DNA of 7,314 bases, taken from NCBI GenBank assembly GCA_026981635.1, contig JALSIF010000317.1:1-7314 (forward strand), given 5' to 3'. Positions 440 through 3,475 of this stretch are shown here, piece after piece. The number at the start of each line of letters is the position of its first letter. The stretch's first letter is position 1. Below the pieces are notes generated by a model that did no database searches, was not told the origin of the DNA, and saw only the letters and a program-made list of their open reading frames with translations. The translations under genes and the position numbers were made by a program. The stretch is from a bacterium. Lineage in GTDB: Bacteria > 4484-113 > JALSIF01.

Positions 440-480
440 GGGAGAGCTCTGGGCGGGGGGGAATATCCCCCTACCCTCCC
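440..480. terminator. Possible bidirectional hairpin between convergent genes
   Basis: Between the thyX stop and the end of the aldehyde dehydrogenase gene, 457-462 (five G and an A) pairs with 466-471 (T and five C) around a three-base loop. An outer pairing of GGGAG at 440-444 with CTCCC at 476-480 is also possible. The hairpin overlaps the last codons of the leftward gene. No U-run follows on either strand, so this is not a textbook intrinsic terminator. Convergent placement is the main support. Confidence 0.35.
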
Positions 481-2093
481 CGGCGGCGGCGCAGGAAGTC
501 CTCCACCATGCGGCGGATCTGCTCTTCACTGAGGGCAAACTGATCGTTTCCCGCCGGCCTTCCCGCCACCACGGTGGGCTGACCCACCGCTGGTGCAGTC
601 CCGGCTAGGGCGGCTCCTCCCCCCTCCTCGATGGGCACCTGGCCCACCATGGAGCGGGAGGGAGAGGGCCTCAGGCTGCCCTGCTCCCTAAAAGTTGGCA
701 GGGGCTTGTCGGTGTAGCCGTTTTTGGCCCTAACCATCTCCCAGGGGACCGACTCGTAGGCCAGCCTTTTTCGGTTGATGAGATGGAGGGGGGTGATGTT
801 GTCGCTGGTGGCACTGCCCCCCCAGGTTCCGCTGCCCAGGGTCATGGCGGGGGGCAGGTTGGTGGTTAGTCCGATGGAGCCCTGGGAGGCGGGGGTGTTT
901 ACCAGGATGCGAAAGACCGGCTTTTCCAGGGCGAAGGCCATGATCACCTCGGGGTCCTCGCCGTGCACCACCAGGGTGTGGCCCACCCCGCCCAGGTTTA
1001 CGATCTCAATGCAGCGCCGGCAGCCCTCCCGCCAGTCCTCCACCTCCCAGAAGCAGATCACCGGCGAGAGCTTTTCCCGGGTGAGGGGATAGTCCCGGCC
1101 CACCGCGGGCTCTTCCACCACAATCATGGGGGTCCCCTCGGGGATCGAAAAGCCTGCCCACTCGGCCAGCACCCAGGGGGCCTGGCCGACGATCTTGGGG
1201 CTTATGCGCCCCCCGGGAAACATCAGCTCCTGAAGCTTTGCCGTCTCCTCCCGGCTGGCGAAGTAGCAGCCCCGGCTCAGGAGCACCTCCCGCGCCTGGG
1301 GTGCCACCTTGCGGTCCACCACGATGGACTGCTCGCTGGAGCAGATCACTCCCCAGTCAAAGGTCTTGGAGGCGATGATGTCGTCAATCGCCTTCTCCAC
1401 ATTGGCCGACTGGTGGATGTAGGCGGGGACATTGCCCGGCCCCACCCCCAGGGCGGGGTTGCCGCTGGAGTAAGCCGCCCGCACCATGGCGGTGCCACCG
1501 GTGGCCAGGATAATGCCAGTGAGCCGGTGGCCCATCAGCTCCTTGGTCCCCTCCAGGGTGACATTGTGGATGGACTGGACGGTGGCACGGGGAGCACCGG
1601 CTCTTACTGCCGCCTGGTCAAGCAGGTCGCAGAGCTCGGCGATGCACTTTCTGGTCCTGGGGTGGGGAGCAAACACCACCGGGTTGCGGGACTTTACGCT
1701 GATCAGGGCCTTGTATATGACGGTGCTGGTGGGGTTGGTGGAGGGAGTGATGCCTGCCACAATCCCCACCGGCACGGCTATCTCAGCGATGCCCAGCTCC
1801 CGGTCCTCGGCGATCACCCCGACGGTGCGCAGGGGAAGGATAAACTCCAGCACCCGATCGGTGGCGAAGCGGTTCTTCATCTCCTTGTGATCGGGCCTGC
1901 CGTAGCCGGTCTCCTGGTGGGCCAGCTCGGCAAAGTGGCGGGCCTTCTCCCGTGCCGCCTCGGCCATGGCTATGCAGATCTGGTCAACCTGCTCTTGGGA
2001 AAACTCCTTCAGGGCGTGGTAGGCCAGCTCGGCCGCCCGCAGGCGGTCCCTCACCTCCTGGATGGAGCGAATGTCGGGGTCAAGTTCAGCCAT
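471..2093 (-). CDS. CoA-acylating aldehyde dehydrogenase, microcompartment type, with C-terminal encapsulation-peptide-like helix
   Basis: This enzyme is predicted to oxidise an aldehyde to acyl-CoA with NAD+ and CoA, as the core aldehyde dehydrogenase of a metabolosome. The 540-residue protein has the AdhE/EutE/PduP-type catalytic domain at about residues 10-455. Visible motifs are T-P-S-T-N-P-T-S-T at 116-124, S-P/A-P-H-P-R-type motif near 142-146, G-V-G-P-G-N-V-P at 216-223, and the nucleophile Cys251 in G-V-I-C-S-S-E-Q-S. The L-G-S-G-T-W-G-G segment near 419-426 is also family-typical. Residues from about 466 to 518 form a Pro/Gly/Ala-rich linker, and 519-537 form an amphipathic helix (L-S-E-E-Q-I-R-R-M-V-E-D-F-L), the usual design of a cargo-targeting peptide for a BMC shell. 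The domain lacks the iron alcohol dehydrogenase half of AdhE. An in-frame TAG lies three codons before the ATG at 2093, so no longer ATG start exists. The nearest purine-rich Shine-Dalgarno-like stretch is 14 bases upstream, unusually far. It follows two shell-protein genes. The exact aldehyde is unknown. Confidence 0.94.
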   Translation of the reverse strand: MAELDPDIRSIQEVRDRLRAAELAYHALKEFSQEQVDQICIAMAEAAREKARHFAELAHQETGYGRPDHKEMKNRFATDRVLEFILPLRTVGVIAEDRELGIAEIAVPVGIVAGITPSTNPTSTVIYKALISVKSRNPVVFAPHPRTRKCIAELCDLLDQAAVRAGAPRATVQSIHNVTLEGTKELMGHRLTGIILATGGTAMVRAAYSSGNPALGVGPGNVPAYIHQSANVEKAIDDIIASKTFDWGVICSSEQSIVVDRKVAPQAREVLLSRGCYFASREETAKLQELMFPGGRISPKIVGQAPWVLAEWAGFSIPEGTPMIVVEEPAVGRDYPLTREKLSPVICFWEVEDWREGCRRCIEIVNLGGVGHTLVVHGEDPEVIMAFALEKPVFRILVNTPASQGSIGLTTNLPPAMTLGSGTWGGSATSDNITPLHLINRKRLAYESVPWEMVRAKNGYTDKPLPTFREQGSLRPSPSRSMVGQVPIEEGGGAALAGTAPAVGQPTVVAGRPAGNDQFALSEEQIRRMVEDFLRRRRGG

Positions 2094-2139: not shown

Positions 2140-2664
2140 TCAGATGCGACCAAGCTTTCTGAAGGCGTCCAGCAGTTCCTGCTTGGTCGCACTGCTGATC
2201 TCCCTGCCAGAGAGGGGGAAGTTCTCCGTCCGCCGGGCCAGATTCCTCAACTCCCTCACGGACAGACCTTCCAGAGCTCCTCCCTCACCGGAAGCAATAC
2301 GAGATGGTGATGGCTCCCTTCCTCCGCTCTGTCCTTGGGGGACCTCCCTCCTCCCCAGGGTCCGCAGTTTCTCCACCCGAGGACTCTTAAGAAGCTCATC
2401 CACCATCCCGTGGGGGCGAGGAATCACATGGACGAAGAGAAGCTCCCCCACTCTCTGGGCAGCCGCAGCTGCCGCATCCACTGCCGCCTTGACCGCCCCC
2501 ACCTCGCCCAGGAAGTAGACCGTCATCAGTCCACCGCTGGAGCGCTCCTTCCTGAGCAGGGTGACGTCGGCGGCCTTGAGGCCTGCATCGGCCGCTTCAA
2601 TCATGCCGACCAACCCGCGGGTCTCAACCATGCCCAGGGCCCTGTCGGCATACCGGTCAGCCAT
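2140..2664 (-). CDS. BMC-H shell protein with 80-residue C-terminal extension (SAP/Rho-N-like tail)
   Basis: Residues 9 to about 93 form a hexamer-type bacterial microcompartment (BMC) domain, with A-L-G-M-V-E-T-R-G at 9-17, the edge lysine in [18 protein letters not shown] at 53-64, and V-I-P-R-P-H at 80-85. By hand alignment about 70% of these residues match the neighbouring BMC-H, so the two genes look like a tandem duplication. The pore loop differs: R-S-S-G-G at 41-45 instead of V-I-G-G-G. After the domain come a polar Gly/Ser/Pro linker (about 94-132) and a predicted helical unit at 134-172. That unit has [10 protein letters not shown] and then [13 protein letters not shown], which recalls the helix-extended-helix pattern of SAP and Rho N-terminal domains. 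A plain BMC-H is 90-105 residues, so the 174-residue length is clearly extended. The ATG at 2664 has a strong ribosome site and follows the upstream stop by 12 bases. The tail's role is unknown: nucleic acid or cargo binding are possibilities. Confidence 0.95.
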
Positions 2665-2676: not shown

Positions 2677-2985
2677 CTAGGTCTCCTTCCCCACCCGCTC
2701 GGTGTAGCCACCGGGGATGATGGTCTCCACCTCAGCGTGGGGCCGCGGGATGACATGGACGCTTTTTAGCTCGCCCACCCGCTGGGCCGCGGCAGCCCCC
2801 GCATCTACCGCCGCCTTGACCGCGCCCACCTCACCGCGGACGAAGACGGTGACGAAGCCGCCGCCGATCACCTCCTTGCCCACCAGGTGGACATCGGCTG
2901 CCTTGACCATGGCATCGGCAGCCTCAATGGACCCGACCAGACCGCGGGTCTCAATCATCCCGAGGGCTATCTCCCTGATGTCCAT
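2677..2985 (-). CDS. Canonical BMC-H hexameric microcompartment shell protein (PduA/EutM/CcmK family)
   Basis: Proteins of this family form flat hexamers that tile the facets of a bacterial microcompartment, with a central pore for metabolites. The 102-residue product is the normal single-domain length. It has [12 protein letters not shown] at 7-18, the conserved edge lysine at 28 (M-V-K-A-A-D), the pore loop V-I-G-G-G at 39-43, [13 protein letters not shown] at 51-63, and V-I-P-R-P-H at 78-83. The reading frame is open further upstream to 3096, but that would overlap the lipoprotein gene. The extra residues are also polar and unlike any BMC protein. The ATG at 2985, which gives M-D-I-R-E-I-A-L-G, has a Shine-Dalgarno sequence and matches family N-termini. 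It is followed after 12 bases by its extended paralogue. Together they would be facet components of the shell serving the downstream aldehyde dehydrogenase. Confidence 0.96.
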
Positions 2986-3049: not shown

Positions 3050-3475
3050 TCAGCGGCCAAATCCGAAGGAGGGTGGCCCGAAGCCTTTTTCCTCACTCTC
3101 CTCTGGAGATTTAACTTTCACCGTCAGCTTTACCGTCCTGCCCGGCTTAAGAACGACCTGGCTTACATCAGCCTCCATCACGGTACCCTTCGCCGTTTTT
3201 ATGGTCAGGTTGTAGGTTGCAGGAGGAACCTTAGATAAAACCACGACCCCATTGTCAGGTACCGACTGGACTATCCGGTCCTGAACTGATGAGCTACCTA
3301 TCGGTTCCAGCACCACCTGGACAAATCCGCGCCGCATACCGGTCTGAGCGTCCACCACGGTGATGGCGATGGTGCCAGGGTAGTCCTTGAACTTGCCACA
3401 GCTGGTGGAAACGGCCAGGAGAAGGGCCATCACCCCGCCTGCCAGTCCTGCCAGGATAGCCTTGCGCATGGTCAT
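3050..3475 (-). CDS. Small probable lipoprotein with a single beta-sandwich-like domain, function unknown
   Basis: The 141-residue product starts M-T-M-R-K-A, followed by a hydrophobic segment at about 7-22 and a cysteine at 26 (A-V-S-T-S-C-G-K). This resembles a lipoprotein signal peptide, although the lipobox S-T-S-C is weak because it lacks the usual leucine at -3. Residues of about 33-123 are rich in alternating hydrophobic positions. They include [13 protein letters not shown] and [14 protein letters not shown], a pattern typical of carboxypeptidase-regulatory-like (transthyretin-like) beta-sandwich domains. The C-terminus is a charged then Gly/Phe/Pro-rich tail. A second ATG at 3469 is spaced better from GGGGAG (six bases), so the true start may be two codons later. 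It begins ten bases after the purM stop and precedes the shell genes on the same strand. An envelope protein has no obvious role in a cytosolic microcompartment, so its place here may be incidental. Confidence 0.75.

Follow-up and report, generated by a model that had tools for sequence, protein, structure and literature searches.

A microcompartment shell protein with a conserved basic tail domain of probable SAP/Rho_N-like fold: a candidate nucleic-acid tether, with probable slippage-dependent expression in one family

Among the described shell proteins of bacterial microcompartments (BMCs), EutK is the closest precedent for a BMC-H protein with a folded tail. The C-terminal domain of EutK is positively charged and may bind nucleotides; when EutK is deleted, the Eut BMCs stay static at the cell poles (PMC12487888). 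PduK and CmcE are other BMC-H proteins with C-terminal extensions. The available part of the catalogue of Sutter et al. 2021 describes BMC-H extensions of up to 200 residues, which cluster on the tree, and in that part the folded domain reported here is not identified (PMC8217296). Beyond the McdAB carboxysomes and EutK, the positioning and inheritance of metabolosomes are poorly understood. Here we describe a tailed BMC-H gene in a stretch of 7,314 nt of bacterial DNA (contig JALSIF010000317.1 of assembly GCA_026981635.1, hereafter the window). Its product is similar to EutK in being a BMC-H protein with a basic C-terminal domain that resembles nucleic-acid binders (PMC12487888, PMC12058022). 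The two differ in the domain itself: the tail of EutK is a PF16365 domain, which was matched neither by the window protein nor by 12 tails of its family, and the tail family described here spans at least six phyla. The Cys-rich motif of PduK (PMC12058022) also distinguishes that protein from ours. The gene and its parts are as follows.

2140..2664, minus strand: gene for the tailed BMC-H shell protein (P0001, 174 aa), with its stop codon; from the open reading frame (ORF), its translation and the PF00936 match
2413..2640, minus strand: BMC domain (PF00936), aa 9-84; Pfam match, predicted local distance difference test (pLDDT) 93-98 in the full-length AlphaFold2 model
2275..2385, minus strand: polar linker of variable length and sequence (aa 94-130); largely disordered by prediction, pLDDT about 48-61
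2143..2274, minus strand: tail domain, probably SAP/Rho_N-like, aa 131-174; from conservation, AlphaFold2 and fold matches

The 174-aa protein matched PF00936 with E 9.9e-26 and 90 bits (curated cut-off 24.5) and is therefore a single-domain member of the BMC-H family. A first-pass annotation, made from the sequence alone, had placed a helical tail with L-x-x-L-A-R and T-K-Q-E-L-L-D-A-F patterns at 2149-2265. The translation agreed in both respects: these positions are exactly residues 134-172, behind the BMC domain and a polar linker, and both patterns are present. The homologous unit is slightly larger and comprises residues 131-174 (window 2143-2274). The linker varies in length and sequence among homologues, unlike the tail, and in the full-length model a short helix (aa 95-104) interrupts its otherwise low pLDDT.

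Prediction of the tail from its single sequence by AlphaFold2 gave a mean pLDDT of 88, with core blocks at 94-96. Two models, one of the tail alone and one of the full-length protein, placed helices at residues 136-145, 153-158 and 161-170 (pLDDT about 93-96), and the full-length model combined a confident BMC domain and a linker at about 48-61 with the same confident tail. Two helices had been noted from the sequence alone; the models add a short third one between them. Disorder, a single helix or a lack of conservation had been named beforehand as outcomes that would speak against a folded domain, and neither the models nor the homologue survey described below showed any of them. Foldseek alone found no significant match to the tail model (best E 1.0). 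When VIA-align was applied to the Foldseek candidates, TAF1 of TFIID came out on top (Z 5.5). It was followed by the Rho N-terminal domain with Z 4.9 (42 residues at 1.8-1.9 A), the SAP domain of FAN1 with Z 4.6 (44 residues at 2.4 A and 39% identity) and T4 endonuclease VII with Z 4.3. Values of Z < 8 may reflect a common structural arrangement.

At the sequence level, individual tails among the 12 that were searched matched several Pfam models weakly and independently of each other (HeH 0.0022, SAP 0.025, Fan1_SAP and Rho_N). All these scores stayed under the curated cut-offs: for SAP (PF02037) the window protein had no match at E 1 and the best of the 12 tails reached E 0.025, while for Rho_N (PF07498) the match reached E 0.12 and 12.9 bits versus a cut-off of 24.9. 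A Pfam search of the window's own genome for Rho_N found no match. At E 1, neither the window protein nor any of the 12 tails matched EutK_C (PF16365), and the NCBIfam EutK model covered the BMC part only, with 55.5 bits versus a cut-off of 218, which places the protein outside EutK. An hhalign comparison with an alignment of 27 Rho_N domains was colinear over 37 columns at a probability of 26%, and one of 250 column-shuffled decoys reached an equal score. The weak HeH, SAP, Fan1_SAP and Rho_N matches and the colinear hhalign result add weight to the structural matches, so that the fold of the tail is probably SAP/Rho_N-like. Since its scores lie under the Pfam cut-offs for SAP, Rho_N and EutK_C, we conclude that the tail is an unnamed family. 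The early assignment to SAP or Rho_N thus held for a conserved, folded domain of probable helix-extended-helix arrangement and not for formal membership. With SAP, Rho_N, HeH-LEM (PF12949) and the FAN1 SAP domain the tail shares the size and colinear motif positions and probably the predicted helix-extended-helix fold; it differs from SAP, Rho_N and HeH-LEM by a longer middle segment, the invariant G-R and A in G-R-x-[IV]-S-x-A, its strongly basic character and its constant location on BMC-H proteins. A match to the Arc repressor in a single-sequence PDB search (E 5e-4, a tandem Arc construct) disappeared when the profile was used and was taken as chance.

A search of 60 relatives revealed one other genome with a BMC-H protein that matched into the tail; the aligned columns of the two tails are 61% identical. 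When a two-row profile built from both was run over 385 genomes, true matches appeared in 11 genomes besides the window (E 1.1e-23 to 7.9e-5 per genome). The conservation of the tail is thus well outside what chance would give, and the resulting 12 tails align almost gap-free. Five weaker matches (L062-L066) were not BMC-H proteins and were dropped. With a 15-row profile the tail was found in 7/9, 1/4, 44/64 and 2/2 genomes of four phyla. The tail homologue (gapless, ~44 aa) is thereby present in about 60 distinct genomes from 14 families and at least six phyla, namely the four profile-searched phyla, that of the window and at least one more for three genomes (G059, G166 and G328) that are absent from all phylum lists. 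The same BMC-H fusion recurs across phyla: every strong match examined in full was such a fusion (the BMC part was N-masked in one of 30 loci), and the profile searches returned no free-standing tail domain above threshold, apart from the frame-split loci described below. Plasmid records, mainly enteric and Gram-positive BMC loci, contained BMC-H relatives, none of which covered 80% of the query, and no tail was seen there; a scan of genome contigs turned up BMC-H relatives that lack the tail.

Seven positions do not vary across 43 distinct tails (V6, L9, R10, R14, G23, R24 and A29). S27 and L34 are almost as constant, and every tail has R or K at position 31. The basic conserved positions correspond to R140, R144, R154 and K161 (R or K in homologues) of the window protein. 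The mean net charge is +4.4 for the 43 tails compared with +0.15 for the 27 Rho_N domains. In a tree of the BMC parts the tailed proteins stand mostly apart from the basal BMC-H proteins, with 6 label changes versus 29 when labels were shuffled. With many of its forks unresolved, this tree neither demonstrates nor excludes one origin of the tailed BMC-H proteins.

Together with the predicted fold and the positive charge of the tail, the EutK precedent favors a nucleic-acid tether that faces the cytosol, and we put the probability at roughly 50% that the protein is a specialized minor BMC-H subunit whose outward basic tail tethers the organelle to nucleic acid. The tailed protein would insert as a minor subunit into the hexagonal facets of the shell beside the basal BMC-H protein, and the flexible linker would carry the small basic domain outward into the cytosol. 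Six tails per hexamer could provide avidity for a polyanion. By analogy to the role of EutK in positioning, the tail would most likely bind chromosomal DNA, possibly RNA, in a weak and multivalent manner, and the organelle may thereby be tethered to the nucleoid or distributed over it. BMC-H C-termini are predominantly outward facing (PMC10902431), and the tail is therefore expected in the cytosol on a flexible tether.

Several points weigh against this proposal. The outward orientation, which the tail should have, is taken from other BMC-H proteins. The tail reaches no Pfam cut-off, and Z values of 4-5 can stem from a common small-helical arrangement. In Rho, RNA contacts are made mainly outside the helical N-terminal part, and SAP, LEM and HeH domains can bind proteins too.

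The most likely alternative is that the tail is a cytosol-facing protein-protein adaptor for a cytosolic enzyme, a positioning protein of the ParA/McdA type or another shell. Small helix-extended-helix modules also act as protein binders, as LEM does with BAF, invariance is as strict at the hydrophobic and G-R-x-I-S-x-A positions as at the basic ones, and the domain stays on BMC-H proteins and was never found free. However, the positive charge is consistent across all 43 tails, the fold neighbors include FAN1, Rho and endonuclease VII, and beside the tailed gene no conserved partner gene other than basal BMC-H was recognized. We regard an adaptor as possible but rather unlikely. It is less probable still that the tail acts on the shell itself, as a cap or as a modulator of assembly or of the pore, by folding onto neighboring hexamers or by dimerizing facets, with the ratio of isoforms tuning shell size. 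In 14 of 20 loci the tailed gene follows a basal BMC-H gene, which would suit such a role, and outward BMC-H termini have been linked both to assembly and to reaching neighboring concavities (PMC10902431), but a long, variable, disordered linker and an autonomous fold fit a tether better than a fixed contact. That the second helix is an encapsulation peptide recruiting cargo, an option the first-pass annotation had left open, is very improbable: there is an amphipathic helix at the C-terminus and the neighboring aldehyde dehydrogenase probably carries such a peptide, but a compact three-helix domain of about 40 residues is predicted rather than one amphipathic helix, and BMC-H C-termini are generally outward (PMC10902431), so that the tail of a shell protein would not face cargo. 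With a conserved basic tail on a shell subunit in at least six phyla, the positioning idea could be put to a direct test that needs one small domain and a handful of invariant arginines.

In one family (G061) the tail was split from the shell protein by a frame change. In 6 of 7 genomes, from four genera, the tail is encoded in the frame at -1 to that of the BMC-H gene. In all six loci (L108-L113; G061, G385-G389) the two frames meet at exactly ten consecutive A (A10), where the BMC-H ORF ends. As templated, A10 leads to a short BMC-H protein of 107-112 aa. One extra A (A11) results in a fusion of 182-187 aa with the tail, while A9 and A12 stop at once. In the six loci no ATG, GTG or TTG precedes the domain in the tail frame; the lone TTG of L109 lies inside the first residues of the domain. 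The tail frame shows an excess of third-position changes, e.g., between G386 and G385 the three codon positions differ 2, 1 and 18 times. We defined a slippage-dependent gene by a homopolymer of at least 9 nt at a conserved frame transition, a downstream frame under selection and the lack of an own start codon, and the loci of this family have all three features. Within ORFs of these genomes, sense-strand runs of at least ten A are uncommon (0 in 190 kb, 3 in 187 kb).

The A10 loci are similar to Thermus dnaX and Shigella mxiE. There, transcriptional slippage at a homopolymer run connects or disconnects the reading frames, and a short and a long product arise from a single gene (PMC1088944). 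From these observations we infer that programmed, probably transcriptional, slippage yields tailed and untailed subunits in this family. Two isoforms by frameshifting have a precedent within carboxysomes in CsoS2 of alpha-carboxysomes (PMC5009743). At the A10 loci, unlike in dnaX, mxiE and CsoS2, the part that is added or left out is the folded tail of a BMC-H shell subunit. An assembly error as the cause of the frame break was rejected, since the same break occurs in six separate assemblies from four genera and purifying selection acts on the tail frame. We also rejected a separate tail gene with its own start, as no ATG, GTG or TTG lies ahead of the domain; this leaves the rarer start codons. 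Downstream RNA hairpins at the A10 site were not common to four loci (z -2.0 to -0.3), and a hairpin-stimulated ribosomal frameshift is therefore not specifically supported.

In a related family of the same phylum (G204), a run of A11 is present at the corresponding linker position (L055 1483-1493) and the tail is in frame by default; as in Thermus dnaX, a change to A10 or A12 would lead to an immediate stop. In the window, shell protein and tail share one frame, and the tailed gene contains no A run of this kind. Genome G428 has an in-frame tailed BMC-H gene whose linker also contains A10 (L136 1477-1486), where close relatives have shorter runs; this run could be slippage-prone or incidental.

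The sequence pattern suggests that slippage sets the dose of tailed subunits in the G061 family, and the number of outward tails per organelle would then be set at the A10 run. If true, this is a means of dosing a specialized shell subunit from a single gene. We consider it possible, though less likely than not, that a widespread, unnamed BMC-H subfamily anchors organelles to the nucleoid or RNA by means of an outward-pointing basic domain of SAP/Rho_N-like fold, independently of the EutK domain, and that in one phylum A10/A11 slippage sets the anchored share, with a short default or a tailed default depending on the family. Compared with the EutK-like idea, a different and much more widespread domain and a probable expression switch are new. 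A literature search that covered few subscription papers found no paper linking microcompartments and shell proteins with the SAP domain, and only a general review that links microcompartments with transcriptional slippage.

The tailed gene of the window is flanked by further genes with a relation to microcompartments.

2677..2985, minus strand: basal BMC-H shell protein, 102 aa (PF00936, E 6.3e-29), directly upstream of the tailed gene
471..2093, minus strand: acylating aldehyde dehydrogenase (EutE-like), 540 aa (PF00171), directly downstream of the tailed gene
474..536, minus strand: probable C-terminal encapsulation peptide of the dehydrogenase (ALSEEQIRRMVEDFLRRRRGG), from reading of the sequence

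The dehydrogenase matched TIGR02518 with 562.8 bits, which is under the cut-off of 620, and its homologues adjoin tailed BMC-H genes in three other genomes (G118, G126 and G263). Its C-terminal helix is probably an encapsulation peptide, because it matches the rule, given in the available part of the catalogue cited above, that type I BMC dehydrogenases bear the encapsulation peptide at the C-terminus (PMC8217296). Directly upstream of the BMC-H pair, at 3050-3475 on the minus strand, a lipoprotein-like protein of 141 aa is encoded, with weak, sub-threshold Pfam matches, a carboxypeptidase-regulatory-like domain among them. In genomes G059 and G332 (L067 and L068) a gene for a subtilisin-like protease is located downstream of the BMC-H pair with no dehydrogenase homologue nearby, and in L067 a kinase-like gene is located upstream. 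On another contig of the window's genome (C42, L183 31-683), and thus at a distance from the BMC-H pair, two adjacent BMC-P (EutN/CcmL) genes have an M48 peptidase gene and a thioesterase gene as neighbors; with these two genes the vertices could be closed, and a closed shell is therefore possible.
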